64,000 bases of DNA from Allolobophora icterica (Eukaryota > Annelida > Clitellata > Crassiclitellata > Lumbricidae): assembly GCA_963556255.1 (NCBI GenBank), contig OY744605.1:85821021-85885020 (forward strand), read 5' to 3'. Position numbers and translations under genes: made by a program. How positions within the stretch are numbered: the stretch's first letter is position 1; each line of letters opens with the position of its first letter. A model generated the notes under the pieces. The model saw only the letters and a program-made list of their open reading frames with translations, searched no databases and was not told the origin of the DNA. Shown one piece after another: positions 778-61,189 of this stretch.

Positions 778-781
778 TTAA

Positions 782-2480
782 ATGAAAGAGCTCTTGAAAT
801 TGGTGCTCATCACATACATAGATAGGATAATCCTGAACACATCAAGACAATCTTGGTGGCATACCATCAAAGACGGTACTACTGTCTGTATAAGGCAATT
901 CAGTCAGTTTCAAACTATAACGATCATTTATAAATGTCATGGGCGTTGACGTCGACTTTACCTTACGAAACTGTATTCACTTAAAATCTAACCTCAATCG
1001 ATGGATCCACAGTTTATTCACATTTTATGGCACGGAGGAATTTATTTTGAACATTTCCCACTCTTCGTGAGGCACGATGCAGCTTATTTTGCTAACAGAA
1101 ATCACAAAAAACGTCGACAGAAATTATTTTGACACAATAGAGCTGAAAGGGTCAATAAAAGAATAAGACTAAAAGGTGTTGGGACACACATTGATATTTA
1201 AGTAGGCCCATTAAAGCAACTCGTTTATTAATCGGTGGCAATTCTTTTCCAGTCCCTTATCCACATAATTTGGACGATTGTGAATGTTAGAACTATGCCG
1301 TTGTTAAGCTTTTGTCGTTTGAAGCAGCTGTGTGTCGGTTAGTGTTAAAATTGGAGCTCCATAAATCATGCATAAAGCGTTTAAATTAGGTAATATGTAG
1401 AGAAATCCAACCAATTTAATTCACGAGGTAGTTTAGACACCTTTAAGTCGGGTGACCAGATGATACATAGAGAGGCCTACTAAATCGCGGAAATTTGTAA
1501 AATAATGAGCTGTAATATGCCAAAACTAATTTCTGTCGACGTCAACGGTCATTGTTGCTATAAGATGTCGTTAAACCCTGGATCCATCCAGCGGAAATTT
1601 GATTATTTTATATGGTGTATGGCCTGCATGACAATTTCCTATCGATGTGAAATGGCGTCTGATGCCAAAAGAAACTTCGTTAAACTATTGGAATCCAATC
1701 TTAATCAATCGGCCTTCATACTTGATTTGCTACTCATGATGTAAAGTAAGGTCGACGCTAACGCTTCTCTTCATATCCATAAGAAATAAAAACAGTCTCT
1801 TAGCCTAGCCTGAGAAGCAACCGTGGAATGAAGTGTTAAATTTGAATTTTAGTGTATGGCACATTACGTTCTTGTAGTAAATGAATAAAAAGGAAACGTT
1901 TCAATCTTTCGATAATTTCTGTGACATTTTTAATGTCTGAAAAAGAAGATTTATGACACCTTAGCGTTGTGATTAATGATGTACAGATTGTACGGCATTC
2001 GGACAATACTAGCACACCCGAACTGCCTAGGCTTCACTCACAAGTATCTTAAAGATATACAGAAGACACGGTAGGAATCTGCGATGGATATTGAAACGAA
2101 CATTGTATGGACGCTGTAAAATAAATAATTATAAGAACACTTAGTTCTAGAATCTTGATTTAGCAACACCTTGTGGCTGCTTCGGCCGTTTACGTCGATA
2201 CCGGATAGCAAGAAGCATGACCCGACATATCTCGAATTAAACAAATTTCGGTATTCATAACCTTTAATGAACGTTATTAAAGGTGTTTAAGGATAACTAC
2301 TGGTGCAGAAGAATTATTAGTGGAATGACCTCGAATTAGTTTTTTTTATGATGCAGATGATTTTACGGGGATTAAGTGTCCAGCGTTGGAAGGTTTGTCT
2401 AGAAAGAGGCATTTAAGAACGCTTTCTATAGATCCATGTGATAATTCGCAGTTACTTTTTCAACCAAAACAGCACCTTTT
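782..2480. repeat. Host repeat units with decayed exon-like motifs
   Basis: This stretch has no intact gene. It holds host unit sequence that recurs across the window: a GACACCTTTAA box at 1436 with a degenerate TATA (TACATA at 1464, 28 bases on), the sequence around GAGAAATCCAACC upstream of it, and a minus-strand Asp-Val-Asn-Gly...His-Lys-Val-Leu-Leu-Asn motif near 2150-2200. A minus-orientation AAAGGTGTTTAA box sits near 2280. Members differ by substitutions and small indels, which suggests old duplication. Confidence 0.6.
1505..1744 (+). pseudogene. Relic open frame with DVNG...KMSLN motif
   Basis: A 79-codon open frame contains Val-Asp-Val-Asn-Gly-His-Cys-Cys-Tyr-Lys-Met-Ser-Leu-Asn near its start. 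The same motif with substitutions is readable elsewhere in either orientation, for example minus strand near 2150-2200, 13800 and 43440, and plus strand near 4830 and 18550. Many differences are at third positions or conservative, so coding ancestry is plausible. No known domain is recognised. It is more likely a decayed exon in a duplicated unit than a working gene. Confidence 0.3.
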
Positions 2481-2639
2481 ATAATTGGTAGGCCTATGTG
2501 TTGAACCGCTAAAAAACAGGACCAAAACATCTCGATTGTGTACAGTTCTAGAGACTGGTATGCCATCAAACCAAATAATAAATTTAATTATAAGAGATAC
2601 CTGTCAGCTTGACTCTCTCTTAAAAAATCTAAAACAGTA

Positions 2640-4175
2640 TGGCATTTTCCGCTACCGTGGATCGAGGGGCGGTTGTCGAAAACCCTCAGCTATACCAGTC
2701 ATCATTACTGAGCACAGACCACAGACACAAAACAACATGAACCGAAAAAAGAAAGACGTAACCTAAAAGTCCTTCGCACTTCTCCCTATATACAAATTTT
2801 CCCTGCACCATTTACTCCATCAACACATGTTCCTTAGCAAAGTCCCCCGCTCTGGATCAACTCCATGCCGACTTAGTAGGTTATAATGTTGATATTGCGA
2901 CATTCACAGAAACTCATTTTAAAAGTCACCGTACTGACGCAGCTTTCTCTATTCCTGACTTCTAGCTATTTCGACGTGACCGACTAGGAGTTACCACCTA
3001 CGTAAGATCGACAATCGCAGCTAAAGTCTGTGAAGTCCATGAGGATTGCTGAGATTTCGAACTCCTGTGGGTGAAAGTCTCATTCAGTCATGGCCCAGTC
3101 ATTATTGGATTTCTTTATTGTCCGCCAAAACCCGTCTACCAAACGATTAAACTGTACGACTTTATAGAGAGAAAACCATTGAAGATCTGATCAATGAAGA
3201 TGCAAGAACCATGATACAACTCAGCGGCGACTTCAACCAACTCGACATCGATGAAATCTCGCAACGCACAGGTCTCACGCCTCTGGTCACCCTCCCCACT
3301 CGTCGAGGCAATATACTCGACATGATAATATCATCGACACCGGGAATATTTAATATTCGAGTCATCAACTCCACAGTCAAGACAGATCATAGAGCAGTCA
3401 TAGCTACAACCACAAATGCCACTTTCTTGGATAAATCTAAAAAATCCGTTACAAAATCTCTTCATCGCCGCACGCCTGAGCAGCATGCGACTATTCTTCA
3501 GGATCTCAAAAACAGTGATTTCTCCAAACTTCTGACTTAAATAATCCCCAAGAAGCCTGGAATGTCTTCTATGCAATCTTGCTGGAATGGATTGACAAAT
3601 AGTATCCTATCCAAACAATCACAATCACCTCCAAAGATCCAATATTCATCACTCCTGAAATAAAATTGTTACTACTTAAAAAAATCGATTCATGCGAGCA
3701 AGACATAGCAAGGGTCACCACCGTAGCTTCCCTGTTGTATGCATGTCCTGCATGGTGGGGCTATACCCGGGCAGGAGACAGGGAGAGGATTGAGCAACTA
3801 CTTAGAAAAATGCGCCGAACTGGCTCACTCTCCCCATCCATCCAAAGCGCTTCAGAACTGGCCAGGCAGGTAGATGAACGCCTATTCAATGCAGCCTTGC
3901 TGACCCAGGCCATGTTCTGCGACCCTATTTCCCTGCTCACCGAAATATTCCCCACAATCTCCGAGTGCGAACTCACAGTTTCACATTGCCTGAGAAGAAC
4001 GATAAAAACTTTATATCCCGTATGCTTTATAAAGACATTTATTAACTAGTCATTGATACCTAATTGAGATCTGATTTAAACCGCACCTGCTGTCAATGTT
4101 TTTAAATACTGTGTAATCCTGTTGCGTTTGTGTCAACGGGAATTTTTGCAATAAACGAATATTGATTGAATGTTT
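2640..4175 (+). mobile_element. CR1/L2-like LINE, internally deleted: endonuclease plus 3' end
   Basis: From about 2839 the plus strand translates, with two internal stops, as an apurinic-type endonuclease: a Thr-Glu-Thr-His-Phe motif near 2915, then Gly-Asp-Phe-Asn (3226-3237) and Thr-Asp-His-Arg-Ala near 3382. After about 3540 the sequence jumps to the carboxy end of the same polyprotein (3666-4049, with Ala-Trp-Trp and Tyr-Thr-Arg), so nearly the whole reverse transcriptase is deleted. The 3' end closes with AATAAACGAATATTGATTG and a TGATT-type tail. The element near 5.94-7.44 kb belongs to the same family and keeps the missing RT part. This copy is dead. Confidence 0.8.
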
Positions 4176-4498
4176 GATTGATTGCCTTACTTTATATCTG
4201 CACAACAGACTACGACTATAAACAGACTGCAAGAGGTAAGTTTTATCTGAAGTCGAAAGACAATCTCTGTGTGAGAGTTGCCATTATGAGGAGGTAGACA
4301 GTTTTCCTCAGTCATCTAAAAATGATGAGAAAGTCTTATGAATGTATGGCTATTAAATGTCGAATTTCTGTTGACTCAAATATGATGGATTTATGTTAAA
4401 ACCACTGTTATAAGGAAATGGAAATGTACACCACTGGGATAGTGTCCGATGACTGCACCTAATATAGACACACCTAACAACGAAACGCGTTTGAAATT

Positions 4499-4534
4499 AT
4501 TTATACTCTTTGGCTAACGGTTAATAAAGGTGTC
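4499..4534 (-). promoter_or_regulatory. Two-box module: GACACC then TATAAAT
   Basis: On the minus strand GACACC begins at 4534 and TATAAAT begins at 4505, exactly 29 bases later. The intervening sequence resembles the module at 36241-36276. Promoter function is inferred from the layout only. Confidence 0.3.
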
Positions 4535-4716
4535 TGATGCACATTTTACAAATAATATACGGTGGTGTAGAAAGACAAAATGAGAACGAGAGACAGAATC
4601 GGGTGGATAGAGGCAAACACTCCAAAAACATATTGGTGGCTCTATTATCATGCGCTAAGATAATATCTGCCATAAGACTCGTTAAACTGTTTGAGTCCAT
4701 CAACATCAGCAACTGT

Positions 4717-4787
4717 GGTGTCGTTTGACTGTAAAAAATAATACTCTATCAAGACACCTCTAAATTATTTTAAAGCCAAGTTATATA
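4717..4787 (+). promoter_or_regulatory. Three-box module
   Basis: GGTGTCGTTTGAC starts at 4717, GACACCTCTAA at 4753 (36 bases on) and TATATAT at 4782 (29 bases on). The spacing matches the best modules in the window although the bases between the boxes differ. Confidence 0.33.
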
Positions 4788-5029
4788 TTCAACCGTTGCT
4801 ATTGTTCGTTGATTACTGATAAACCAAGGTCAACGGCCATGGCACCCATAAGATGTCGTTAAAGAATGGATCACAATAATATAGGCAGCAAATGCAATGT
4901 ATGGGTAGCTTTCGTTCGATATGTTCTTCCACGAACAACCCCATCCACACTCGGGAGTTGAAATATTAAAACCAAATAACATGTTTTATGAATTTTTGCA
5001 CTAAGGGCCTAATTATGGATATACATATT

Positions 5030-5175: not shown

Positions 5176-5488
5176 TCTCCCAAATGTTGCAACTATTTCT
5201 ATAATATGGCTTGATAAGATCATCTGATTGCTGTGTCAAATTGAAGAGTAGAGTAAGAATCTCATGTTTTAGTTGTAAATATTATAAATTATCCACAATT
5301 GCTTGATTGTATTAATTAAATACTTATGTTAAAATTTGCCAGTAAATGAGAACCTAGTGTTATAATTGCAAGTTTGGCAAATATAAATAATTTGAAGATT
5401 CGAATGGTAGATTGAGAATCTCGACTAAAATAGTGGTTCTTTTCTACATTATTATCAAGTCTGTATCACGGTTGGTTAATGCAATCCT

Positions 5489-5613
5489 TATATATCGTTG
5501 TTTGACCCAGTTTTGGGGTGTCTAAAGAGAGCGTATCCTACGCTTATATAATATCGAATAACAATTTCAAAGGTGTCTAAAGAGAGTGCTTAAGCAATCG
5601 ACTCAACCACGTC
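5489..5613 (-). promoter_or_regulatory. Two tandem modules on the minus strand
   Basis: The upstream module has GACGTGGTTGA at 5613, GACACC at 5577 (36 bases on) and TATATAA near 5550. The second has GACACC at 5522 and TATATAAGG from 5494 (28 bases). The same sequence, inverted, is found at 26807-26923. Confidence 0.3.
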
Positions 5614-7439: not shown

Positions 7440-8230
7440 ATTTTTATTCGGCTTCTGATTCACCAATGGACGAATCGCAAGTTCCTTGACATGGAGGCCA
7501 GTGCATCGCAGGATTTTCTATTAACTTCTGCTGCTTGGTGAAAGAGGCTAACTGTAACACGGTTTTCGTTCTGAAACATCGAAGCCGCAATCGTTAGATC
7601 GGACACCACCGGGTCACATTATTAAGGCGCTAAACAAATGTTAATTACACACGAATACGTAGTCTATAAAATTTACAATCTGTAAACAACACTGTGTGGG
7701 CTTTAATTGTAATTGTTATTGTAATAATATTGTAACTAGTGACTTGTATAATTGAGCCGGTGTAATGCACAAGGCATCAATAGATGGCGCACTAAAACCA
7801 TTGCTATTAGGAGGTGATTCCAGTCTGAAACCTGGATAAAGGAGGAGGGTGACGCTAATCATCTTTGCTCTAGCATAACGTCGTTAAACAACAGTTAACC
7901 AACCAATCAAAATCACAAACATACGAAATACACGAAATTCAGGCCAAAATCAACACCCTAGTAGCCTTAAGATGTTGCTAGACGGTAAATTATGTGACTC
8001 TATTAAGACACCTTTAAAACGTTGTAACGGACCATATATAAACAAAAATTGTGTTTTATCGATAGATCTTCCGGGTCCCCCGTCAAGGGTCCTGTCTGCC
8101 TGCGGTAAACAAATAAGACTTAACTGATGAACGATGAAATTTGCCTCCTCTGTCGTTTTCGAGTGATTCCAGTCTATATCCTGGATGAGGAAGGAAAGCG
8201 ATGATATTTATGACACAGTGACATCTCGCG
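7440..8230. repeat. Dispersed GCGTCACCCTCCTCC repeat and a host module
   Basis: No gene is seen. On the minus strand, about 7760-7920, lies a copy of a dispersed repeat whose core reads GATTAGCGTCRCCCTCCTCC followed by TTTATCC and GACTGG. Related copies are near 8170, 17030, 17950, 22080, 22510, 25710, 26055, 32225, 32660, 42540 and 44250. Its upstream part is GGTTGGTTAGCTGTTGTTT. The class (SINE, MITE or unit segment) is unresolved. Confidence 0.5.
7971..8040 (+). promoter_or_regulatory. Three-box module
   Basis: GATGTTGCTAGAC starts at 7971, GACACCTTTAA at 8007 (36 bases) and TATATAA at 8035 (28 bases). The sequence after the TATA (AACAAAAATTGTGTTTT) also resembles that after the minus-strand modules at 25902 and 32419. 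Confidence 0.33.
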
Positions 8231-11419: not shown

Positions 11420-11421
11420 AA
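10501..11421 (-). CDS. Open RT carboxy-terminal frame of the RTE-like element
   Basis: The frame is open for 306 codons from the truncation point to its natural stop. It begins inside the RT palm: [11 protein letters not shown], then Phe-Ala-Asp-Asp at 11263-11274, Phe-Cys-Tyr-Leu-Gly-Ser, Gly-Ser-Glu-Thr-Trp-Thr, Trp-Ile-Gly-His-Ile-Leu-Arg and Gly-Arg-Pro-Arg. These motifs and their order are typical of the RTE/BovB group, and the protein matches decayed copies at 17105-17740. There is no endonuclease, so it cannot mobilise itself. Absence of stops in a dead fragment implies fairly recent insertion. Confidence 0.82.
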
Positions 11422-11598
11422 ACACCTTTAAGTCAAAATTCTTTGATGATATATAAATGAATTTTGCTCTTTAACATTAGATTTAACGACGTATACGGCC
11501 TCTGATGCCAAAAGATGTTAAACAAGTGGAATCCAGTCTCAATCAATCGGACTGTACACTTGCTTTCCTACTCAAGATGTAAAGTAAGGTACAATACA

Positions 11599-13699: not shown

Positions 13700-14220
13700 A
13701 CGTTGAAACGAACATTGTGTGGACTCTGTATAATTATGGACACTGTATAATTATATCAACCTAAGAACATTATTAGTTATAGATTCTTTGTTTAGCGACA
13801 CCTTGTGGCTGCTTCGGTAGTTTTCGTCGATATCTGATAGCAGGCAAAGCACCTCTAGGAGTCATAGATTAAGCGAAGTTTCCATATTCATAGCGTTTAG
13901 TGATCATAATTAAAGGTGTTTACGTATTATCGCTAGAGCAGAAGAATTATTAATGGAATGACGTCGAATTAGTTAATTTTTTTATGATGTAAATGATTTT
14001 ACGGGGATTAAGTTTCTGGTTTCGGAAGGATTTTTCTATAGAAAGAGTCATTTAAGAACGATTGCTAGATTCATTTGATAAACCGTTCGCTGTTTATATT
14101 CATCGTTTAGCGACATCTTGTGGCTGCTACAAACTACAGTCAGCTGACATAAAAAAACTCACTTGAAAATGCTACGCGTAGGATATATTATAACTTTAAT
14201 AGGAGCCAAAATTTATTGAA
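13700..14220. repeat. Host repeat units
   Basis: Two minus-strand copies of the Ser-Ser-His-Lys-Val/Met-Ser-Leu-Asn motif lie near 13795-13830 and 14100-14130, with an AAAGGTGTTTA box near 13911. The order matches 2150-2290. No intact gene is seen. Confidence 0.5.
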
Positions 14221-16354: not shown

Positions 16355-16392
16355 GACACCTCTAAGTTGATTGAAAGAATTTTACTTATAAA
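16355..16392 (+). promoter_or_regulatory. Module next to the Helitron insertion
   Basis: GACACCTCTAAG begins at 16355 and TATAAA at 16387, a relaxed spacing of 32. Rejoined across the Helitron, the sequence ahead of it reads Asp-Asp-Thr-Asn-Leu-Leu-Arg-Asn-Tyr-Gln-Ala-Val-Leu-Arg-His-Leu-stop, matching the exon relic at 22979-23155. Confidence 0.3.
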
Positions 16393-17762: not shown

Positions 17763-17835
17763 TATATATAGCAGAGGTTGCACGCGTTTTAAAGGTGTCG
17801 TATTGGAGTTACATTAGTTGCCGTCTAGCGACATT
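17763..17835 (-). promoter_or_regulatory. Three-box module
   Basis: On the minus strand the upstream box (AATGTCGCTAGACGG) starts at 17835, GACACC at 17799 (36 bases) and TATATATAAA at 17770 (29 bases). Confidence 0.33.
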
Positions 17836-18395: not shown

Positions 18396-18467
18396 GGTAG
18401 CTGTTTGACCGCTAAAATAATACTCCACTAAGACATCTCTAGATCATTTCATAAAGAAGATACACAT
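18396..18467 (+). promoter_or_regulatory. Three-box module with a splice-donor-like sequence downstream
   Basis: GGTAGCTGTTTGACC begins at 18396, GACATCTCTAG at 18432 (36 bases) and TACACAT at 18461 (29 bases). The TATA is degenerate. GATCGCTAGT follows near 18483 and GAGC-GTAAGATAG near 18505. Confidence 0.3.
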
Positions 18468-18899: not shown

Positions 18900-18934
18900 G
18901 ACACCTTTAAGTCGGATTTACCCAATTATATATA
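18900..18934 (+). promoter_or_regulatory. Module cut by LINE insertion
   Basis: GACACCTTTAAGTCGG begins at 18900 and TATATATA at 18927 (27 bases). The LINE tail starts a few bases later, so the downstream part of this unit has been displaced. Confidence 0.28.
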
Positions 18935-19579
18935 TTCAATTCAATTCAATAAATCTTTATTGGTACTCATGACAATCTTTAACCAAGTTATGAACATCAG
19001 CCAAATGTATTATGTCTAGTGTAGCATTGTTTTACTGTCCGACAAAATCAAGAGTAAGAACATTTGTTAAAATTAAGAGTGTGTGGCTTGTGGTATATTA
19101 TGCATATCCTGTTGTCTTAAATACCAAAGGGTAACCCTAAAGGGATGGAAGTCCCGCTAAACCAGGGATGCCCTATTATTTAATTTACTTTTTAGAATGA
19201 CGGCAGCTAAGATGATCCATTGACGGATTCAACATCTGTTAAGAAGTGCATTTGATTAAGTACTCGGTTAGGTCTTAACTAAACTTAATTATGAATTATG
19301 AAAGAACAACAAGAAATGGAAAAATGGAGAAACAAAAAAACAAAAATGAACCCAAAAAGAAAGAACTAAGTAAAAGAAGCCTACCAAAGCAGGCTACAGT
19401 AAGTCCCTACTGGGACTCTATAGTCAATCGCTTAAAGTAACAACCAATAACTTGAACCAAGTTACCAAGGAGTATACGATGAGCGATACGAGACTCTTAT
19501 ACTTGACCCCATTGTGACCTAGACCAAGTTTACTCAAGTCGATCCAGGGAGTATATGCTGCAGGTTAATTATTCATTGA

Positions 19580-22857: not shown

Positions 22858-22978
22858 TTAGTAAAGGATTTCAACAGTTCGCTTTCTATATCGACAAAAC
22901 CAGGAGGATAAGAGGTTGCGTGAACTCATACGATGAGGCTACGAATAGACGTGAATAAGTAAAATTCTTTAAATAAAC

Positions 22979-23155
22979 TTAGAGGTGTTTAAGCAGAACT
23001 TCGTACTTTCGTAATAAATTAGTATTATCAATAAATTCATCTGGATTTTCTTCAACATCCAAAATTTCTATGTTTATTGCATTATTCATGAGTTGCCAGT
23101 TTTGACTGTTACCAGCATCTAGCAGCTTCAAAAGAGAAATGCCTATTTGTGACAT
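22979..23155 (-). CDS. Candidate carboxy-terminal exon ending in LxxLLKHL-stop
   Basis: The minus strand from ATG (23155-23153) to TAA (22981-22979) is open for 58 codons. It includes Ser-Gln-Asn-Trp-Gln-Leu-Met-Asn-Asn-Ala, Asp-Val-Glu-Glu-Asn-Pro-Asp-Glu-Phe-Ile and Leu-Leu-Lys-His-Leu. Relatives elsewhere (about 24880-24980, 28609-28770, 31400-31500, 37789-37900, and the plus-strand units near 18.8, 39.2 and 46.5 kb) keep NPAxFI and LRHL-stop, but all I checked carry stops or frameshifts. Many differences are synonymous or conservative. I do not recognise the family, and this may be the least-decayed exon copy rather than a functional gene. Confidence 0.35.
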   Translation of the reverse strand: MSQIGISLLKLLDAGNSQNWQLMNNAINIEILDVEENPDEFIDNTNLLRKYEVLLKHL

Positions 23156-23754: not shown

Positions 23755-23790
23755 CACACCTTTAAGTCGTAATCACCAGATGCTATATAA
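23755..23790 (+). promoter_or_regulatory. Two-box module
   Basis: CACACCTTTAAG (GACACC with a first-base change) starts at 23755 and TATATAA at 23784, 29 bases on. ATCGAGCAATTTCAG follows about 24 bases after the TATA, as in related modules, and an ATGCAAAT octamer lies near 23854. Confidence 0.32.
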
Positions 23791-28164: not shown

Positions 28165-28167
28165 TTC

Positions 28168-33527: not shown

Positions 33528-33681
<154 letters not shown>

Positions 33682-38110: not shown

Positions 38111-39227
38111 TGCACCCATTTCCTAATAATTTTGATTCTTAGAAAATATGCGAATCATTCGAGTAAGATGCCAAATAAGTCTACTAAATCAAATAATTAC
38201 CACGTGGAATCAGAATAATTAATTTTAATTTCCGTCAAATACAATTAAATACAGCTAATTTTAAAATGTTCTCCCTACAGATTTCAAAAGAAATCGTAAT
38301 AAATGGAACCAAACGGAAATTTTATTGAGACTGTGGAATTGGAATTGGACAAGCAAGGAGATTATATATAGAGAAGATTTGAGGCATAAATATTGCGAGA
38401 TTCCGCGCTGTTTGTTCAGAGGAATGTTAAACTATCGTCTGATATTAGGCCTACTGTCTGATGAGAACAATTTAAACCTATGGTTTCTGTTTGTGTCCAA
38501 TTTTTTACGACATTTTGTTCGACCTTTATAACCTTAGCAGTTACTATGGTTTTAATCTACAACATTAATCTAACAATTGAGAGTTATCGAGAGGGTCTTT
38601 ATACTACCTTGTGTAAGCTAATAATGGTGTCACACGCAAACTTATAAAAGTATATGTAGTGTGTAGACAGACAAAATGAGAATAAGAGACACAGACTGTA
38701 CGTAGCAGACAAGGGGAGAGGCAAGAAAGACAGAGACAATAAGATAGACAGAGACGAAGACGAAGATAGAGACAGAGAGAAATGTAGATAGACAGAGGGT
38801 GAATGACAGACAGAAGATATATATTCATGAATTGCGTTTGATCGCCAGCTATTACCATGGCAGTCATAATATGCCGTTAAACACTGGAAGTTGATCTATT
38901 TAAAGTTCATACCGAATAACATATTGCATATATGTGTCTAATAACTGTCACTGTATAGCTATTAAAGTAACTCGTGAATATAATATTATTTAGCTGCAAT
39001 TCTTTTTCAAGTCCTTCAGCTTCATAATTTGCACGCTTGTAAGAGAAAGAACAATGCCGTTATTAAGCTTTTGTCGTTTATAGCAGCCGTATGTTGGCTA
39101 GTGTCAAATATGGTCCTCCATAAATCAAATATAAAGCGTATGAATTATGAAGCTGAAGGAAGCGAAGAGAAATCAAACAGATTTAATTCACAAGCTAAAT
39201 GAATGCACAATTACCAAGCTGCCCTTA

Positions 39228-39264
39228 GACACCTTTAAATCGAATTCCACAGACGATATATATA
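39228..39264 (+). promoter_or_regulatory. Two-box module
   Basis: GACACCTTTAAATCG begins at 39228 and TATATATA at 39257, 29 bases. The stretch between is the same length as at 46584-46620 although several bases differ. Confidence 0.35.
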
Positions 39265-40008: not shown

Positions 40009-40044
40009 GACACCTCTAAATCTTTTACACCCAAAAATATATAT
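40009..40044 (+). promoter_or_regulatory. Two-box module
   Basis: GACACCTCTAAA begins at 40009 and TATATAT at 40038, 29 bases. GATCGCTAGT lies near 40089. Confidence 0.32.
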
Positions 40045-41213: not shown

Positions 41214-41249
41214 TACACCTTTAAGTTGGATTTATCTGATGTTATATAT
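41214..41249 (+). promoter_or_regulatory. Two-box module
   Basis: TACACCTTTAAG starts at 41214 in the GACACC position and TATATAT at 41243, 29 bases. AATCGCGACAGTTCAG follows. Confidence 0.3.
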
Positions 41250-42181: not shown

Positions 42182-42489
42182 CGAGATCGGAGCTAACGGT
42201 GAAACGCAACGGTAATGTATATAGCTTTGATATTAAAAACAAAGAGGTGTCTAAAGAGAGCGTCAGTATTACAGTGTTGAGATGACTTCTTGTCACCAGT
42301 GTTAACAACGTCAACCCAGATATTTGCCAAACCATGACTGAAAATTTCTGATGCTTACGCTAGAGATTTAGTCCAATAGCTTAACGACATCTCATGGTAA
42401 GAAAGGTGTTGACGTCGACAGAAATTATTTCGAAGAATTCTCACCTTCCGTGAGGTATAATAAATACGATTTTTAATCACCGAATGCGT

Positions 42490-44132: not shown

Positions 44133-44168
44133 AACACCTTTTAGTCGGATTCAGTAGATGCTATAAAA
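44133..44168 (+). promoter_or_regulatory. Two-box module
   Basis: AACACCTTTTAGTCGG begins at 44133 and TATAAAAAT at 44162, 29 bases. Confidence 0.3.
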
Positions 44169-44331: not shown

Positions 44332-45384
44332 CAGCGTTACCACTCCTTGGGTTTTTTCACAAGATCTTGGGTTTTTTAATCCGAACTTGGGAAATGGGGT
44401 TTTTTCTTGGAGACCTTGGGTTTTTTCCTTGGGTTTTTTCTTATTTTATTGAAACCCTATTTTTCATTATTTTAATCAAGTTTTGCAACGGTCTGGATAT
44501 TTGAGGTCAATAAATAAATGGTGTAATATGCGTGCAAGAATGTGCTATAGTAGTATATTGCTGATTTTAAGATATAACTCTAAAGACTAAACTCGCTATT
44601 CTAGTCTACCGCTACATTTAGAAAATATAACTCTAAAGACTAAAGGAAACTGCAGACTCAGAGTGTACTTTTTGGAAGTTTTCCCGAAGTAATCAGCTCT
44701 TGCTCATTTTTAAAACTTAAGATATAATATTTTGAGCTTCATCATGGGCGACAGCAGGAATTTGTTTAGCGGGGAGGGGGCGAAATTTTTAAGGGGGCAA
44801 ATTTTTAGGGGGTCTGGAAAAATGAAGTTTGTGCACAGAAACTAATATTAGATAGAAATTTTTTAAAATAAATAATGATCAATAAACTGCACCATAATAA
44901 TTGTTTTTTTTCGCATTGAAAATCGTGTTGGGACTGTTGTAATAATCATAATAATCAAGATTTTATTTTTGTAAAATATTTGCAAAATCCAGGGGCCCTC
45001 CTATGTTCTTCATAGTCGTTTATCTTCATTCCTGTTTTAAAAATTAAAAAATTAAATATGCGATAGAAGTAATTCACGTGATTCGGACTCTGATGAAAAT
45101 AAAAACATGTATATAGGCCTAAACATTTTAAATTTGCTTTGAATATTTACTGACAACGTTTAGCAATTGACGATTACCCATACAATTTTAAAAATGAAAG
45201 ATAGAAATGAAAGATAGCAGAACATTTTTATTACAGGAATTGGTATAATGGCATTATATTATTATATTTTATCCTATAATGCGTTTATTAATTTAAAAAG
45301 TATGCAGAAAAACGACCTTGGGTTTTCTTGGGTTTTTTCAATGTCCTAACTTGGGTTTTTCATTTATTATGAGTGGTAACACTG
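44332..45384. mobile_element. hAT element (1053 bases) with perfect 8-base target duplication
   Basis: GATAAAAC flanks both sides (44324-44331 and 45385-45392). Terminal repeats are CAGCGTTACCACTC and, in complement, CAGTGTTACCACTC: 13 of 14 identical. CTTGGGTTTTTT-type motifs recur five or more times near the left end and three times near the right end, all in the same orientation, as expected for subterminal transposase-binding motifs. No transposase frame is present. It splits a CCCTCCTC repeat whose intact form is at 42490-42650. Confidence 0.93.
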
Positions 45385-45460
45385 GATAAAACGTACAAAC
45401 CCTATTGACCGCCACTGATGTGAATATTCAGCTACAGAATACTTACAAAATTGTTGAATG

Positions 45461-45493
45461 TATAGCATCGGCTCTGAATAATTCAGAGGTGTT
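45461..45493 (-). promoter_or_regulatory. Two-box module
   Basis: On the minus strand AACACCTCTGA begins at 45493 and TATACAT at 45464, 29 bases. Confidence 0.3.
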
Positions 45494-46583: not shown

Positions 46584-46620
46584 GACACCTTTAAATCGTA
46601 TACGACAGGCGATATATATA
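46584..46620 (+). promoter_or_regulatory. Two-box module
   Basis: GACACCTTTAAATCG begins at 46584 and TATATATA at 46613, 29 bases. GATCGCTGAAATTTCA starts near 46625, and ATGCAAAT near 46692. Confidence 0.35.
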
Positions 46621-47560: not shown

Positions 47561-47583
47561 GCTACCTAATACCGCAATTACAT

Positions 47584-48135
47584 ATTAGCGTCTGTCAAAA
47601 TTTTAGAGGTGTCTAAACAGAGCGTATACAAGCATTATAAATATAACAGCATTTCAAGGTGTCTAAAGAGAGCACTCAGCCAATCAATTCAACCACATCC
47701 TACTGATGAATTGGTTGCATCAAATGAAAGCTATGATATATCTGAAATTATTGTCCTTAAGGCTTATTCTAGAGTCGTTGCTGTTATCATTAGCGTCGTC
47801 ATCATCACCAACTCTACCAGCACCGCCCCACTACCGACACCATCATCATCCTCACCCAAACAGTCGTCACCAACGACGCCACTGCTACCATCGCTACCAC
47901 CCTACTCCAATCACCACCCTCACCACAATCACGGTGGTAAGACGCTCAAATCTATTCGGCTCCTGAGCCAGCAGTGGACTAAGACAGCGTCGTTAAGCAG
48001 CAGCTAGCCAACCAATCACAATCACAAACATCCAAAATGCACGAAGATCATGCCAACGTAAACGTCCTGGTAGCCTTAAGATGTCGCTAGACGGTAAGTA
48101 ATGCGAGACCAATACGACACCTTTAAAACGATTCT
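47584..48135 (-). repeat. Inverted copy of the 26.0-26.9 kb host segment
   Basis: The complement of 47640-47780 matches 26740-26860, including TATTCTAGAGTCG, the module boxes (minus, GACACC at 47613 and 47663) and the upstream box at 47699. A CCA/CAT-rich tract and the complement of the CCCTCCTC repeat flank (GCAGCTAGCCAACCAATCAC) follow. Confidence 0.65.
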
Positions 48136-48150
48136 AACCTAAGCTATATA
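48080..48150 (+). promoter_or_regulatory. Three-box module
   Basis: GATGTCGCTAGACGG starts at 48080, GACACCTTTAA at 48116 (36 bases) and TATATA at 48145 (29 bases). A TA microsatellite follows. Confidence 0.35.
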
Positions 48151-48152
48151 CA

Positions 48153-49039: not shown

Positions 49040-49076
49040 AATATATATCATCTGGAGTATTCGACTTAAAGGTGTC
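49040..49076 (-). promoter_or_regulatory. Two-box module
   Basis: On the minus strand GACACCTTTAAGTCG begins at 49076 and TATATAT at 49047, 29 bases. A second minus module has GACACC at 49224 and TATAAG at 49195, also 29 bases. Confidence 0.35.
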
Positions 49077-49823
49077 TAATCGTAGCTTGGAAAAGTGTGT
49101 TATTTATTTATTCCAAAGTTTAACGTCGTCCTTCGGCAACAATGGCCGTTGACGACAATTCACAAATACAATTTCTAGAAAACGATAAACTTATAGTGTC
49201 CGTATAACACCATGTAAAGGTGTCAAACATAAGCTTACAATGTCAGTAATGTCACATCACCCAAAGCAACATATCTAATGTTATTTATAATACACATAGC
49301 AATAAAATGTTCCGACGCAAACCAAACAGTACTTCGCAACTATTATCACTCGCTAGAAATATTTAAACAACTTCAGACATAAATGCACAGCACATATGAT
49401 TATAATTATGACATTATATTCCCATTCTATTATTGAAATCTTTAATTGATCATTTCTTATTCCTCAGTTCAATGAGATCTTATAGCAATATGTACCACTA
49501 CAATCATATCATGTATGAAATAGTACCAATCTCACATACATCATGCATATTAAATGAAACGTATGGTTATACCAAGTACCTTTCCTCAAAGAAACTGCTC
49601 AGGTACTAAACACACTCAAGTACAAATCTCATCAACCAACAAAGCATAAAATTACATGAGCATAATAATTACAATTGTTCAAGTTTGATATTAATGCATT
49701 CAAGATTGCATTATAATAATGTAATAATTAATACAATAAAATAAAATGCACAAGGAAAAGACTAATTAAAATTAGATTTAAAAAAAAAAAAACTATTTAC
49801 ATTAGCAAACTTAGCATATCTCT

Positions 49824-52800
49824 TTACAGAATTTGACCTTTAGTAATTAGTTTAAGTACCCTATACACTTCATTTTGTAATATATTTACTGTTAAAAGGG
49901 TTGAAATAGAAATGTCCCTTTTATACAATTGACATTTATCTCCCAACAACTTCGATATATCTTCTTTTTTACACTCAAGTAGTAGGTGATGAATAGTCTC
50001 CTTGACCTGACAGGTATCACATAAACCACTTGAATGTCGTTTTATAATAAACAGCCTTTGATTAGTATTCGCGACTCCCAGACGTAACCTAGAAATTTGG
50101 ACTTCTTTATGCCTATAAGGTTCTAAATATTTAATATCTGTACTTACAGTTGGAGAAATAGATTTATAGAAATGACCTCTATTATCATTAGTATATTCTA
50201 ATTGCCATTTATTTACTATATACAGTTTCATTAAAGTAAAAATTTCTGAAAGTTCAAGATAATTAGTAGAATTAACATGATCAATACTCAGGGCTTCTTT
50301 AGCCAAAGTATCTGCTCGATCATTACCTGTCAGGCCAATGTGACTTGGGATCCAAATAAATCTTATTTGATTGGAATTTAGTCTGTTAATCAGAGACAAT
50401 AAATCATTCAATAAAGTAGGTCTAGACTGAGAACAAGACTCCTTAATTGACGTAAGAACACTCAATGAATCAGAAAACCAAGCAAATTGACAATTCTTAT
50501 GACATTCGGAGTTTAAAATCCATATTACAGTTTCTATAATTGCAGTCAACTCTGCTGCATAAATACTGGAGTTATTACATAATCTAACTTTTTTATCTAT
50601 GTTTAAACTTGGTACTGTAAAGGCAGCAGAGACAAATTCATCTACCTTCGACCCATCAGTATAGATATGTATGTAAGAGCTGTACTTAGAAACTAATTCC
50701 AAAGCAGATTGCTTTAAATATTCTGGATGATCAGTTTTCTTATTTATTAATTTATTCAAAGTTAAGTCAACCTCTACTTGTTTGTTACACCAAGGAGGTT
50801 CAGAAGGGAAAGAAGGGCCAATAACAGATGTATTAAGTGAAGAAAAGAATTCAGAAGTACGAGTATAAATGGAATGCTCCCTATTCTCAGATGTCCTAAA
50901 AACATTTGTCCAGTGGTTCTCCATTGTTGCTGTATTTATGTGAAATTTATTACCCAAAATTTTAGTCCCACATTTTATTGAATTTTGGAGTCGTCTTAAA
51001 TGAAGAGGCAACTCTCCACATTCATTTTGAAGTGCTGAAGCTGCAGTACCCTTAGGGGCTCCACAACATAATCTAAGTGCCTCAGTTTGGATACAAGAGA
51101 GTTTATCTAGGTGCGATTTACAAGCAGAAGAATAAGCAACGTCACCATAATCTAAAATAGACCTAATTAATGCCCTATATATGGTTAGGAGAGTTTTCTT
51201 ACAAGCTCCCCAACCATAGCCACTGATGGCTCTTATGAGATTTAACCTCTTTTTGCATTTTTCAATTATATAATCAATATGTGGTTTCCAACTCAATTTA
51301 CTGTCAAAAATTACTCCCAAGAATTTGACCTCATTTTCCATTTTAATTTGTTCTTTATCAATTTTAATAGTAATCCTTGACAAATTATTTCTTTTGGAGA
51401 AAAGGACTCCAGTGGTTTTATTAATAGATATTTTAAAACCATTTCTATTACACCAATTTTGTATTAAATTGATCGATAATTGAATTTTATTTTGTAATAT
51501 TTTAACATTTCTATGTCCTAAGTAAATAGCACTATCATCAGCAAACAGTGACATCTCTACACCATCCACACCTGCAGCAATATCATTTATCATTAGCAAG
51601 AATAAAATAGGAGATATTACCGAACCCTGGGGTGTACCATTCTGTTGTATACATTTATCAGACAGTTCTGCCCCAACTTTCACCTGAAAAGTTCTATTTG
51701 AAAGAAAGTTTTCAATCCAGTTAAATGTATTACCCACTATTCCCAAATTCTGAATTTTATTTAAAAGGGTAGGTACATGTAACATGTCATATGCTCTTTC
51801 AAAGTCAATGAAAATAGCCAAAACGTGTTCTTTATTTTTAATTTTTTTAAGAATATTATCCTGAAGTTTAAGGATTTGATCATTTGTACTTCTATATTTT
51901 CGAAAGCCAGACTGATTTTTTGAAATAAGGTTATTTTTTTCCAAAAACCATTGGAGACGTTTTGTTACCATTGTTTCCATTACTTTACAAATCGTTGGAG
52001 TCAATGATATAGGTCGATAAGATTCTGGAACCGAGGCGTCTTTATTTGGTTTTAATAATGGTAGAATAATGGCATGATGCCAGTCAGTTGGCAATTTCCC
52101 TTCCTCCCAGATTTCATTATAAAATATTAATAGGGTTTAAAGAGCATTTTTATGAAGATGTTTTAACAACTCATAAGGTAATTTGTCATCACCTGGTGAC
52201 TTATTATTTTTTGCTGATCTTATAGCTTGTTTCAATTCATTAAGGTAAAACCTCTCATTTAAGATTTCCATTTCATGAACAGGACTACTGTCAATTCTAT
52301 TAGGGTTATTTTGTAAATTATTATCTTTGATATAATTTAAGAATTTTTTACTATAATTTTGGGTACTACTAGTACTTGCATAAGTGTTAGCTAAAAGATT
52401 TGCTTTTTCAAGGTTTGTTTCAGCTATTAATTCATTACGATTCAGAGTAGGAATGGAACTATAGGTTGCAATACCATTCATTTTTCTTGCCCATGTCCAA
52501 ACAGAGCCCAATTTTGTCTGATCCGCAAGTTCAGAGCAATATGTTTGCCAACAAGTTTTTGCTTCTGTTTTAAGTGTCTGTTTAACTATAGCCTCTTGTT
52601 TCTTGTATTCCAAATAATCATTTAACTCCCTTGTTTTATTCATTTTATTCCTATACTGATTTCTTTTATAAATGACTTCACTGCATTTATCACTCCAATA
52701 TGGTAAAGGTCTAAATTTTTTATTTTTATTCTTTCTATTTTTTAGATTTTTACTAGGAATTGATTGATTCGCTATAGAAGTAATACAATCTACTAAATTA

Positions 52801-53603
52801 TTGAAATTAGCATCAACATTTTTATCAACTAAAATATCTGTTGTTATTGAAAATTTACTTAGTTCTTCATAATTCTTCCAATCCGCTTTTTTTAATTTCC
52901 ATAGATGCATACTTAAATTATACTCTATTGTGATTTCTTCATTAATAGTAGTTATAGTAGCATAATGATCAGAGCCCATATTGCTATTGGTGACGTTATG
53001 TCTAGCATTAAGTGCTACATCTTGTGAACATATGCTCAAATCTATAACATAATTCAAATTTGATTGGTTTGATGTGATACGTGTAGCTTGACCTGTATTA
53101 AGCACAACTAAATTCTTTTCTGTTAATATTTCTTCTATAATTTTCCCTCTGTTATTTGTCTTAGAACAGCCCCAGAGTTTATTATGAGCATTAAAATCGC
53201 CAACAATTATTGATCTTTTATGTGGAAAAATATTCTGAATATCTTCTTTTTTAAATGTATATGAAGGTGTGATATAAGAATTAAATATTTTTAAATGACC
53301 GTTGAAAGTTTTAATTTCAATACCCTGAATTTCAATGTTTGGAATGTCTTCCACAGTTAGTACATTAAAATTTAAGCCCACTTTTAAGTAAATAGCTAAA
53401 CCCCCCCCCCTTTCATTATTTAAGCAGTCCTTACGTATAATATTGTAACCATCCAATTTTGGTGATTGAGTGACACCTTTCACAAAAGTCTCTTCCACAC
53501 ACATCACATCTGGTGGAACACACACCTTCATTATATAATTTCTAAGTTGGTCCTTATGACCACGTAAACCACGTGCATTCCATTGAAGAATGGTCAACGC
53601 CAT
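49824..53603 (-). pseudogene. I-clade ORF2: endonuclease, RT, RNase H; one in-frame stop
   Basis: Starting from ATG at 53603 (Met-Ala-Leu-Thr-Ile-Leu-Gln-Trp-Asn-Ala-Arg), the frame has endonuclease motifs (Glu-Glu-Thr, Gly-Asp-Phe-Asn-Ala-His, Gly-Ser-Asp-His-Tyr). RT follows, with Tyr-Arg-Pro-Ile-Ser-Leu, Gly-Thr-Pro-Gln-Gly-Ser-Val and Phe-Ala-Asp-Asp at 51534-51545. RNase H has Tyr-Thr-Asp-Gly-Ser, Ala-Ala-Glu-Leu, Ser-Asp-Ser and Asn-Asp-Arg-Ala-Asp. A Cys-x2-Cys-His-His-Cys tail closes it. A TAA at 52139-52137, between endonuclease and RT, is the only lesion: the frame is otherwise continuous for about 1,259 codons. All visible catalytic residues are kept. A poly-C run (53401-53410) encodes Gly-Gly-Gly and could be a frameshift hot spot. 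Confidence 0.9.
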
Positions 53604-53640
53604 AGTGGACAACAACAAAAATGAAACTACTGCTCTTAAT

Positions 53641-55659
53641 TTACGTGTCTTTATAGCTAAATTCTATCTCATTATCAAAAAGGATTTCAGATGCTGCATG
53701 GCAGATTACAAACTGTGCATGTTTTCTGGACTCAGCTTTTGCAATAGCTGCCAAGACGCCAAGAACAAAGGACACTTTTATTTTTGTAATTGGGTCATAA
53801 TCTTCTACTGTGTTATTTGCTGGTTTTCTGTTATATTTTGCCTTATAATCTTTGTCATTGAATGACAAAAACCTTTTAACTACATCATCAGACGTTTGAA
53901 CATTAGAATTAGTTGGTGTTTGTATATCTAATGAAGTATTTATTACTCTTGCTTGGGTTTCTAGTCCAGTTTTAACTTTTGAGGCATAAGTGGAATTGTC
54001 TGTTTTAAGAGCATTGACAGGAACATTCTGATACTGGATCTCATCAACCTTAACAACAGCATCAGCAAAAGTAATATTTTGTTCTGCTCTTATTCTTAGA
54101 GAAGCTTGGATTTTGATATACATTGGACAGCTTCTGTGGGCAGCACTATGATTCTGACCACAGTTAGCACATCTTAATTTAGTTTTATCTGGACAATCGA
54201 CATAAGAGTGGCTACCACTGCATCTACTGCACACAACTTCTCGTCTGCAAAATAATTTAGAGTGACTAAACATTTGGCAATGATCACATCTTTGAGGTCT
54301 AGGTACAAAAGAATTAATTCTATACCTCCTGCCATTCACTTCCAAAAATTCTGGCAAAACAGTCCCTTTGGGATAAGCAATCAAAGTCGCTTTGCTAAAT
54401 TCGGAATTGCCAATTCTATGGATATGATGGGCTCCATTTTCCAATGCTATTTCATTTAAATTCTCTTGACTTTCAAGTAGTCCAAAAACTACCCCTTTAA
54501 CAAAGTACTCGTTTTCCTGTCTTTTCACAGGAGGTGGTTTATTAGACACAGGCTGAAATGTCAAAGAAAAGGGAATACTAGTTTTCACGGGCTTATCATT
54601 CAATGATTGTATCTTAAGAAGTTGATTTTTCTGAGCTTCATCTTTAGCTATTATTTTCAGTACACCCTGTTGAGTAACAAAAACTTTGTCAACCTCTCCC
54701 CTAGTCTTCTCAACTATTTCCTTGTTGAGTTGACGAGGAATGTGTTTGAAGTAGTTACGAAGATCATCTTTATGCCCATCTATATACACAGTGCGTGACT
54801 GAACCTCCCGTAAGAGCTTCTTTTTTTCCTCAGTCAGAGGAGGACGGGATTTATGGTTAATTTTGTTTTCAATAACTTGGTCAGTTATTGATTTATTTAC
54901 ATCATTTATCACCTCATTTGTCAACATTGTGGAATTATTCATGGTAATGATCTTCTCTTGTCTTACCATATTTGCGCAATTTGAAATTTCAATCATTTCA
55001 ATATCGCTTAAAACCTGAAAATTTGCATCATCCTGACATGCAGCAGATTCATCAATACATATCACATCAACACATTTCTTAGAAACAGATTTCTTAGCGC
55101 TATCAATGACCGGACTTTTAAAAATACTTGTCTTGAGTCTCTTTTTCGGGTGTGCTTGTGGGTGACCATCCATCCTACACCGCCGATCCTGGAGCTTCTC
55201 AGTAGGGACTGCCTTCAAGAAGTCATCTTTAATCAATGTTTTTGTATAATTCCCATTTATTGCAAGACCTTGCCGGTTTTCCAATGAATATGATCGTCTT
55301 TTTGCCGTTGACTCAAAGTACGATTCAAAATGCGTGACATTATCATGTCGAAGATTGTCGGAGGAATTACATAAGAAATTTCTCATATCTTCAACAGAAT
55401 TTGATTTATAGTTACCACGTTTGTCTTCATCTGCATCTTCACCGTTTGTATTTCCAGAAGTTTCAGCGAAACCCGTTTGGTATGAATCGGTTTCACAGGC
55501 TGAAGAAGACAAGATTTCCTGGCTTTCAAGTAGTACGTCTGACTTATGTTGATTGTCTGATTTAGGTGTATCAATGATATTTTTTGTCATCGATACATCG
55601 CCTGCATTTGAAGAGCTCGATGATGTATTGAGAGGTCTCTTTCTCTTGCCTTTTCCCAT
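53641..55659 (-). CDS. I-clade ORF1, gag-like with three CCHC knuckles
   Basis: The frame runs 672 codons from ATG at 55659 (Met-Gly-Lys-Gly-Lys-Arg) to TAA at 53641. The first 280 residues are Ser/Asn/Asp-rich and probably disordered, with an early basic cluster. Residues roughly 480-545 hold three zinc knuckles: Cys-x2-Cys-x4-His-x4-Cys, then Cys-x2-Cys-x3-His-x4-Cys and a third with longer final spacing. Such proteins bind element RNA and form the RNP in which ORF2 acts. ORF2 begins about 38 bases after this stop. It is intact, so the element is young or conserved by chance. Confidence 0.88.
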   Translation of the reverse strand: MGKGKRKRPLNTSSSSSNAGDVSMTKNIIDTPKSDNQHKSDVLLESQEILSSSACETDSYQTGFAETSGNTNGEDADEDKRGNYKSNSVEDMRNFLCNSSDNLRHDNVTHFESYFESTAKRRSYSLENRQGLAINGNYTKTLIKDDFLKAVPTEKLQDRRCRMDGHPQAHPKKRLKTSIFKSPVIDSAKKSVSKKCVDVICIDESAACQDDANFQVLSDIEMIEISNCANMVRQEKIITMNNSTMLTNEVINDVNKSITDQVIENKINHKSRPPLTEEKKKLLREVQSRTVYIDGHKDDLRNYFKHIPRQLNKEIVEKTRGEVDKVFVTQQGVLKIIAKDEAQKNQLLKIQSLNDKPVKTSIPFSLTFQPVSNKPPPVKRQENEYFVKGVVFGLLESQENLNEIALENGAHHIHRIGNSEFSKATLIAYPKGTVLPEFLEVNGRRYRINSFVPRPQRCDHCQMFSHSKLFCRREVVCSRCSGSHSYVDCPDKTKLRCANCGQNHSAAHRSCPMYIKIQASLRIRAEQNITFADAVVKVDEIQYQNVPVNALKTDNSTYASKVKTGLETQARVINTSLDIQTPTNSNVQTSDDVVKRFLSFNDKDYKAKYNRKPANNTVEDYDPITKIKVSFVLGVLAAIAKAESRKHAQFVICHAASEILFDNEIEFSYKDT

Positions 55660-55985
55660 TTCAGATTTCGTTTTTGTTTAAAGTTCAGTATTATAAATTT
55701 CAGTACGGTACAGATTTCGCGCGTAAATGGCGCGAAAAACCGAATCTCTCGATTAACTCGTATTAACTCGTTTAATCTCTTGATTAACTCGTATAATCCT
55801 TTACAATGTCTCGATTATTTCGTATGTAATCAGGCATAATATCGAATCGCATTATTTATCATGTCTATCTATGTAGAAAACAAAATCTCTTGACAACGAT
55901 TCTCGACAACGATTCGACGTATCAACTTCTCGACGCCATTTTCTCAGTGACGATTGTCTAAAAAGTGTGTATTCGTTTAAGTTAA

Positions 55986-56021
55986 ATATATATCATCTTG
56001 TGAATTCGACTTAAAGGTGTC
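55986..56021 (-). promoter_or_regulatory. Two-box module upstream of the I-clade element
   Basis: On the minus strand GACACCTTTAAGTCG begins at 56021 and TATATATTT at 55992, 29 bases. The strand is the same as the LINE's sense strand, so transcription from here, if it exists, would read into ORF1. Confidence 0.33.
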
Positions 56022-60271: not shown

Positions 60272-60316
<45 letters not shown>

Positions 60317-60330: not shown

Positions 60331-60590
60331 TGAAACTAAAAGGCCCCAAAACAAAAAATTCTGATTTGTTAGGTCCCTACGAATTGTGATGCCTTAAGAT
60401 GTTGCCTTTTTAGCTAATGAATAAACCCGCCACTGCCTACGACAATAACAACTATTACTACTACAACTACTATTACTATTACTGTTACAATTGGATTTGA
60501 TTTGATATCACAAATGTGGCAGCATTGTGCGGTGATGAGTTAAAACGCGTTGTATCTGTGTAATACACAGAATAATTGAAGGATTTCTCT

Positions 60591-60626
60591 ATTTATAGAG
60601 CATTATAAAACTGACTTAAAGGTGTC
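60591..60626 (-). promoter_or_regulatory. Two-box module
   Basis: On the minus strand GACACCTTTAAGTC begins at 60626 and TATAAAT at 60597, 29 bases. Confidence 0.33.
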
Positions 60627-60884
60627 TAAATAGAGTTTCGTTAAATCGACTTACATGTGTCTAATAAGACAGCTTTGATAATTTGTTATTGAATGAAGCT
60701 TGTTTATAATAATAGAATAAGAAGAGAAGAACAGGGCCGGATTAATCACTCGGGGCCCCATGCTTACTATAAACGGGCCCCTTGTATTGAGCATGAACTG
60801 ATAGAATGCTTAAAGACTTAAAAATTTTGAGCAGCACGGCCAACTCTATATAAATAAAAATTGCGATTAAAGATCGATGCATGA

Positions 60885-60968
60885 GAACACAATTCGCCTG
60901 TGGAACGCCATACCCTGACGCCCTCTGACGAACACTTCGGCCTATTCGAGGATGGCTATGAATGCGAA
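60885..60968 (+). pseudogene. WD40 exon relic
   Basis: ATTCGCCTGTGGAACGC and CGCCCTCTGACGA match 27750-27800 (Ile-Arg-Leu-Trp-Asn-Ala ... Arg-Pro-Leu-Thr). Small indels break the frame. This is the copy furthest from the others. Confidence 0.5.
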
Positions 60969-61035
60969 TAAAAGGTGTAATTGACACTTTTACCACAAGC
61001 TATCCGCATAGACTCCAAAACTAATGCGCTCATAA

Positions 61036-61070
61036 GACACCTTTTAATCGCTTATAACCGAAGCTATATA
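61036..61070 (+). promoter_or_regulatory. Two-box module
   Basis: GACACCTTTTAATCG begins at 61036 and TATATAT at 61065, 29 bases. CCACAAGCTATCCGC lies near 60993 in the upstream-box position. Confidence 0.32.
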
Positions 61071-61189
61071 TTTTAAAATTTTGGCTTGTTCGTTGGCTTT
61101 CATTCCATCAAAATTGAATAATAAAACGTGGTTGTTTGGACACTCGAAACAAATTGGCAAGATAAGGTCTATTTTAAACCTAAAAGTTA

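Follow-up and report, generated by a model that had tools for sequence, protein, structure and literature searches.

The window analysed here, a stretch of 64,000 bases on chromosome 4 of the earthworm Allolobophora icterica, contains dispersed modules in which a box, GACACCTYTAA, is followed at a characteristic distance by a TATA-like sequence (the TA-box). The modules have the anatomy of promoters, match the small nuclear RNA (snRNA) promoters of the same genome, keep their boxes under constraint and are clustered. They are very probably promoters of the snRNA type. A preliminary description of this DNA had proposed the same, and the reading is supported by the hits of an snRNA-derived weight matrix at a spacing of 29 bases and by the conservation of masked boxes. 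The best explanation is probably an array of clustered RNA polymerase II (Pol II) promoters of this type, each driving one short noncoding RNA, and it is likely that many of the units are transcribed. The dense array of small transcription units suggested earlier would fit these results.

In the proposed mechanism, i) the proximal sequence element (PSE) would span about -19 to +14 around GACACCTYTAA, with the TATA box 29 bases downstream; ii) SNAPc and TBP would bind box and TATA and recruit Pol II; iii) transcription would begin about 57-58 bases past the G of GACACC, at an initiator-like TCGNTAG; iv) a unit-specific short noncoding RNA would end near or past a block, AAGATGTCGTTAAAC, where this is present; and v) as a further and weaker step, the short RNAs may feed a Piwi small-RNA pathway, as do those of the nematode 21U-RNA loci.

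Box and TATA spacing

A module was defined by the presence of ACACC, no more than two mismatches to GACACCTYTWA, and a TA-box start at 26-33. This rule is wider than that of the preliminary description, which had counted about 36 modules with about 24 at a spacing of 29; the recount gives 45 modules, 31 of them at exactly 29. The 29-base spacing itself was confirmed at every box for which it had been reported (24/24). The TA-box letters are TATA in 22 of these, and TACACAT (+18432) and TATGTAA (-47613) in the other two. The box reads GACATC at +18432, and its first base deviates at 23755, 41214, 44133 and 45493.

GACACC occurs 60 times in the window, 3.5-fold more than the mean of 17.1 (maximum 26) in 20 dinucleotide-Markov sequences. 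A TATAW starts at 25-31 in 27 of the 60, against a Markov mean of 0.5 and a maximum of 2 (n=20; the Markov sequences were scored at 26-31). The 214 kb of cluster sequence contain 82 exact GACACCTYTAA sites, 47 with TATAW at offset 29; offset 31, found in 37, is mostly the second register of TATATAW. The analysed set comprised 168 sites, 144 of them nonredundant, and 100 of these have the TA-box at 29. In the whole genome (1,117,693,669 bases), GACACCTYTAA-N15..22-TATA has 12,067 matches (4720+7347) and the reversed pattern 105 (53+52); the number of distinct sites is somewhat below 12,067 because overlapping TATATA registers were counted separately. The reversed-pattern, Markov and offset counts rule out chance or AT-rich composition as the origin of the modules. 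A pattern with N{16,16} gave 6 matches and one with N{17,17} (spacing 30) gave 0, but one flank letter differs between them, so the pair is no strict control of spacing.

Comparison with the snRNA promoters of the same genome

Forty-three snRNA promoters (17 U2, 8 U6, 11 U1 and 7 U4) from 49 loci served as the yardstick; six loci without a 5' anchor were excluded (L026-L028, L057, L063 and L077). The loci are samples of the genome matches: 20/46 for U2, 12/30 for U1, 8/11 for U4, and 9/14 for U6. All 35 U1, U2 and U4 promoters have their best ACACC-type box between -54 and -59, and the eight U6 promoters have theirs at -63. This box contains ACC in 42 of the 43, CACC in 28 and ACACC in 17; these letters lean to the hypothesis because the box was picked by an ACACC-favouring score within a 30-base range, whereas the constancy of its place does not. 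A T at -3 is common to both sets (34/43 snRNA promoters, 0.91 of modules).

U2 is transcribed by Pol II and U6 by RNA polymerase III (Pol III). In 10 of 17 U2 promoters, four of them nearly identical, the TATA lies 28-29 bases past the base that corresponds to the G of GACACC; the remainder have spacings of 26 (four, alike among themselves) or 31 (two), or no TATA (one). The U6 spacing is 34 in 8/8. Eight of 11 U1 promoters have no TATA, and six of seven U4 promoters have one at 27-33. A weight matrix made from 32 nonredundant snRNA promoters, with no modules included, was run on the window: a TA-box follows at exactly 29 in 24 of the 100 best positions, where 2.7 are expected, and among the top 150 TATAW stands at offset 29 22 times, at 31 14 times (second register), and at any other offset at most 4 times. 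The place of the snRNA box and the matrix result therefore indicate that the modules bear this animal's proximal element, with the U2 spacing and not that of U6. A Pol III (U6-type) promoter for the modules was rejected, a spacing of 34 being seen in 0 of the 82 exact sites. U2 gene clusters lie at C2:43.12-43.33 Mb and C20:42.16-42.49 Mb, with several copies diverged or cut off, and two U2 relatives are found on chromosome 4 (contig C4) at 86.30 Mb, close to the module cluster.

The likeness to PSE-TATA snRNA promoters recognised by SNAPc thus covers the box core, T at -3, the distance to the predicted start, and most U2 spacings. The modules differ from such promoters in the AA at positions 9-10, a module-specific variant present in 0/43 snRNA promoters, in driving no recognisable snRNA, and in the lack of an AAGAAAA-type 3' box.

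Conservation of the boxes

In a masked test, the boxes were hidden in the query, paralogues were found by the remaining sequence, and the place of the box was then inspected. Of 63 paralogous places, 61 had an intact ACACC; the spacer differed at 0.23 per site and the TATA at 0.07. In the most diverged set, ACACC was intact in 14/14 with a spacer difference of 0.34 per site. The spacer had fewer gaps (0.030 per site) than the segment +51..+70 (0.083). It had been claimed that the bases between the boxes vary more than the boxes, and the masked data bear this out; the spacer is not as conserved as the boxes, and on this point the promoter reading holds.

Four subfamily alignments give pairwise identities of 0.44-0.69 for the spacer, 0.96-1.00 for the core, and 0.85-1.00 for the TATA, and gap rates of 0.00-0.04 for the spacer vs 0.10-0.24 at +68 to +78; their members were chosen by box and TA-box, which inflates the core and TATA identities and somewhat disfavours spacer gaps. 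Over 100 nonredundant 29-spaced modules, information is high in two stretches, about -19 to +14 and 29-34, and falls close to zero past +50, the columns of the core and TA-box being inflated by the selection of the modules on them.

Common descent alone might preserve boxes and spacing if the array were inert, composed of satellite-like or segmentally duplicated former promoters. The subfamilies do share upstream and downstream sequence by descent. Against this, only about 34 of the 63 masked ACACC would be expected intact if the copies had drifted at half the observed spacer difference, and the spacer changes more than the boxes; an inert array is accordingly quite improbable.

Predicted start site and the sequence past it

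In 145 nonredundant units, TCG, CGNTA and TAG peak 24, 25 and 28 bases past the first T of TATA. Fifteen units have TAG at TATA+28, where the mean per position is 1.9 and the second-highest count 8, and 12 have CGNTA at TATA+25 (mean 0.9), these k-mers having been picked after the subfamily consensus was viewed, which counts against them. With stricter redundancy removal (55 units), TAG at 28 is still the highest but small (5). The initiator-like TCGNTAG peak corresponds to PSE G +57, where the geometry of U1, U2 and U4 places the start. The third base is T at the putative start in 67/145 units.

Of five segments compared, the 30 bases past the predicted start recur least: another match there (at least 18 bases, within the 214 kb) is present for 21 of the 145 units, against 46-104 for the other segments. 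The 30-mers are all different, largely by construction, because near-identical copies were removed first. A hypervariable, guide-like segment, suggested by the subfamily alignments, was rejected; accelerated evolution is not claimed because positions 58-88 are conserved at about the level of the far flanks.

Of 172 modules, 58 have the block AAGATGTCGTTAAAC on the same strand no more than 150 bases upstream (51 at 35-59), and 68 have it 40-400 bases downstream (46 at 70-129); on the opposite strand there are 9 upstream and 9 downstream. The array is thus partly head to tail. Covariation in a proposed hairpin of the 3' block gives z of 1.9-2.5 for the inner stem and -1.1 to 1.8 for the proposed outer stem. 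The block was rejected as an snRNA 3' box: 11 of 15 U1/U2/U4 3' flanks have AAGAAAA instead.

Several observations weigh against the main reading, in which each unit has an snRNA-type promoter and makes its own short RNA. The exact module 11-mer is found in 0/43 snRNA promoters; conservation of the 30 bases past the start is about at far-flank level and not clearly below it; AAGAAAA occurs in just 5/145 units and an Sm-like site in 3/145, which is chance; and a scan of the window and of six of the 15 cluster loci gave no Rfam match. The last two also bear on whether the array is an expanded family of ordinary snRNA, spliced-leader (SL) RNA, small nucleolar RNA (snoRNA) or other known structured RNA genes. 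Its promoter type would suit such a family. The donor-like GGTAAG (4/145) and the C box (2/145) are, like the Sm-like site, at chance, and the bodies align poorly across units. As far as these scans reach, SL RNA, snRNA and snoRNA identities were therefore rejected, and an ordinary structured-RNA family is extremely improbable.

Modules, 3' blocks and the LINE of the window

The features of the window are as follows; the number in brackets is the TA-box offset.

1436..1471, plus: module (GACACCTTTAA, TA-box at 28); 3' block at 1562
2252..2287, minus: module (AACACCTTTAA, 28)
4499..4534, minus: module (GACACCTTTAT, 29)
4715..4729, plus: 3'-type block (AAGATGTCGYTARAC-like), 38 bases upstream of module 4753
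4753..4788, plus: module, class A (GACACCTCTAA, 29)
4850..4864, plus: 3' block, 97 bases past the start of module 4753
5487..5522, minus: module (GACACCCCAAA, 28)
5542..5577, minus: module (GACACCTTTGA, 29)
8007..8042, plus: module (28)
11421..11456, plus: module (AACACCTTTAA, 29), the sole one of the 45 starting within the 17 reverse transcriptase (RT)-like frames tested
13885..13920, minus: module (AACACCTTTAA, 28)
16355..16390, plus: module, TACTTA type (28)
17764..17799, minus: module (29)
18432..18467, plus: module variant (GACATCTCTAG, TACACAT at 29), outside the 45
18900..18935, plus: module (29)
22954..22989, minus: module, TACTTA type (28)
23755..23790, plus: module (CACACCTTTAA, 29)
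24851..24886, minus: module, TACTTA type (28)
25867..25902, minus: module (29)
26843..26878, plus: module (GACACCTTTGA, 29)
26901..26936, plus: module (TATT at 29)
28130..28165, plus: module (29)
28585..28620, minus: module, TACTTA type (28)
29608..29643, plus: module (29)
30403..30438, minus: module, TACTTA type (29)
31375..31410, minus: module, TACTTA type (28)
32384..32419, minus: module (29)
32477..32512, minus: module (29)
36241..36276, minus: module (GACACCTTTAT, 29)
36671..36706, minus: module (GACACCTTTAT, 26)
37157..37171, plus: 3'-type block, first of two upstream of module 37267
37230..37244, plus: 3'-type block, second, 37 bases upstream of module 37267
37267..37302, plus: module (29), start-site region ATCGTTAGTT
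37761..37796, minus: module (GACACCTCAAA, 29)
38596..38631, minus: module (GACACCATTAT, 28)
39228..39263, plus: module (29)
40009..40044, plus: module, class A (29)
41214..41249, plus: module (TACACCTTTAA, 29)
42216..42251, minus: module (GACACCTCTTT, 28)
44133..44168, plus: module (AACACCTTTTA, 29)
44490..44525, minus: weak module (TACACCATTTA, 26)
45458..45493, minus: module (AACACCTCTGA, 29)
46584..46619, plus: module (29)
47578..47613, minus: module (TATGTAA at 29)
48116..48151, plus: module (29)
49041..49076, minus: module (29)
49189..49224, minus: module, F1 subfamily (GACACCTTTAC, TATAAGT at 29), in the 3' region of a long interspersed nuclear element (LINE)
49824..55677, minus: LINE with the F1 module in its 3' region; one open frame has RT and RNase H domains, another an endonuclease domain, and a third no Pfam match
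55986..56021, minus: module (29)
60591..60626, minus: module (29)
61036..61071, plus: module (GACACCTTTTA, 29)

A rival explanation is that the units are retroposons. The modules would sit within elements resembling short interspersed nuclear elements (SINEs) or in LINE 3' ends, and only copies with a working promoter would multiply, giving an apparent conservation. Like SINEs and LINE 3' ends, the modules share the block AAGATGTCGTTAAAC, which stands 70-129 bases past 46 of the 172 and also terminates other repeats, some with microsatellite tails. A LINE that encodes reverse transcriptase, RNase H and endonuclease domains holds the F1 subfamily in its 3' region, a context seen at window 49824-55677 (minus strand) and at loci L039, L033, L040 and L043; related or near-identical copies of this 3' region are present on C1 and C4, and most end in an A-rich tail, although L033 does not. 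The shared 3' block and the place of F1 are the main evidence that part of the array may be retroposon-derived. The head-to-tail order, with the same-strand block 35-59 bases upstream of 51 modules, is a further point in favour; a head-to-tail array in which each 3' promoter transcribes the following copy would be similar to HeT-A.

Several other observations set the units apart from SINEs and LINE 3' ends. Because the promoter stands upstream of the predicted start, and so outside the predicted transcript, a copied transcript would lose it. Among aligned units, tails are found in F1 only. The recent copies observed are local tandem duplications: a 128-bp unit repeated nine times (L042) and a 0.95-kb unit repeated three times (L037). 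Homology in class A, a cluster-specific class, runs beyond the 3' block, and its exact pattern, unlike a mobile family, has all 12 of its genome matches at C4:84.97-86.10 Mb (1.13 Mb of 1.1 Gb). To account for diverged copies whose boxes are intact, nearly as many sources as copies would be required. A search of 57 candidate places for empty sites recognised no clean single-unit insertion. One of the 45 modules starts within 17 RT-like frames, where 12.4 are expected; the frames were hand-picked from 38, and three were verified with Pfam. A retroposon origin of the units at large is, on balance, unlikely, and if it were true, it would be unusual in its own right for a mobile family to carry a promoter of the Pol II snRNA type.

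A second dispersed repeat (window 7875 and 22128, plus strand, and other cluster loci) has a ACAGTGTCGTTAAAC-like end and seems to share the 3' block without the promoter. Locus L043 (331-6808, chromosome 1) contains tandem units with TGGTTAGAGCGCTC directly before the box, a sequence which, by eye, we take to resemble a transfer RNA D-arm.

Distribution in the genome

The published genome comprises 1,117.80 Mb in 16 chromosomes, with chromosome 4 given as 87.13 Mb in the part of the genome note used here (PMC11530748). The window lies about 1.2 Mb from the end of chromosome 4 (87,128,788 bases). Clustering was judged from samples of the genome. Five 10-kb pieces elsewhere on chromosome 4 (one with 2,471 N) have 0 box sites; the flanks, sampled in ten 10-kb pieces, have 2-10 in eight of them and 0 in the two at the far left. 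A restricted pattern gave 23 matches across contigs of at least 10 chromosomes. Seventeen of these are on contigs of shown length, and 16 of the 17 fall in the terminal 13% at either end of a chromosome, a zone that by length would hold 26%, the limit of 13% having been set after the matches were viewed and two of the matches being alike.

The modules had been described as occurring in both orientations, and over 164 kb the strands are indeed mixed without runs of one strand (64 runs; 56.4 on shuffling). On chromosome 1, among the matches listed, one strand dominates long stretches, as judged by eye.

Relation to small-RNA loci of other animals

The nearest working model for short Pol II units of this kind is provided by the nematode type I Piwi-interacting RNA (piRNA; 21U-RNA) loci, above all by the motifs resembling those of snRNA genes in P. 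sambesii and P. murrayi, in the portions of the two reports drawn on here (PMC6436959, PMC9683057). Features in common are i) very many separate short units, clustered and on both strands, those of the earthworm being predicted; ii) an upstream motif related to the animal's own SNAPc/PSE motif; and iii) unlike sequence past the start. The earthworm box is GACACCTYTAA and the nematode motif CTGTTTCA. According to the sections consulted, nematode piRNA and Pol II snRNA loci are without TATA, and the piRNA motif is derived from the snRNA motif (PMC6436959); the earthworm modules differ in having a TATA at a fixed distance, a feature shared with most U2 promoters read in this genome. The earthworm modules are also surrounded by transposons, whereas the worm piRNA clusters are, in the portion of the paper used, not transposon-enriched (PMC9683057). 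A further difference is the block 70-129 bases past many earthworm boxes, and the earthworm units are known from sequence alone.

Autonomous piRNA-type genes in the earthworm would consist of thousands of short Pol II units with a dedicated PSE variant and a TATA, clustered toward chromosome ends, each with its own small RNA. By analogy with the nematodes such genes are conceivable, though the proposal is doubtful, and it is equally tentative that the unit RNAs are piRNA-like. YRNT at TATA+28 is found in 38/145 units (mean 12.1), but also in 35 at 17 and in 34 at 25, and under the stricter redundancy cut offset 17 is higher (26 vs 25 at 28). Because the peaks at 17 and 25 nearly equal that at 28, YRNT gives no clear start signal, and the piRNA-type interpretation is the weaker because this signal is not unique. 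Genes with a Piwi domain (Argonaute family) are present in the genome, PIWI and Argonaute being taken together.

In earthworms, transposon-derived piRNAs peak at 29-30 nt on the 5'-U strand, in a pool of Amynthas and Lumbricus, as given in the part of the study used (PMC6085071). Capitella piRNAs are 28-31 nt, and the word "promoter" occurs 0 times in the main text of that report (PMC8915122). Among the matches listed, open-access titles and abstract openings contain no snRNA-type promoters for small-RNA arrays outside nematodes, which is weak evidence of absence because it covers open-access literature only. In the sources as far as they were used, it is nematodes for which autonomous piRNA genes driven by snRNA-type promoters are described, and the flies and vertebrates named use long clusters. 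If the earthworm units were of this kind, this would suggest that the snRNA machinery was recruited for mass small-RNA production more than once, or earlier, by an origin separate from that in nematodes or as an ancestral mode. The sharp prediction is an RNA start at about +57/58 of each unit.

Other features

The window contains a 211-bp tandem repeat at 208-594 and a perfect (TA)72.5 microsatellite at 33530-33674. Its left part, from about 800 to 4850, is a segmental duplicate (window and locus L032) of DNA about 20 kb leftward, the aligned pieces being 86-98% identical. The assembly includes a mitochondrial contig of 15,328 bases, whose COX1 is read with the invertebrate code. Elsewhere in the assembly, C257:6513-7808 has a COX1 match with a 721-amino-acid open frame without TGA codons, possibly a bacterial contig, and C8:61145195-61147845 contains mitochondrial COX1-like stretches in opposite orientations within a nuclear chromosome.

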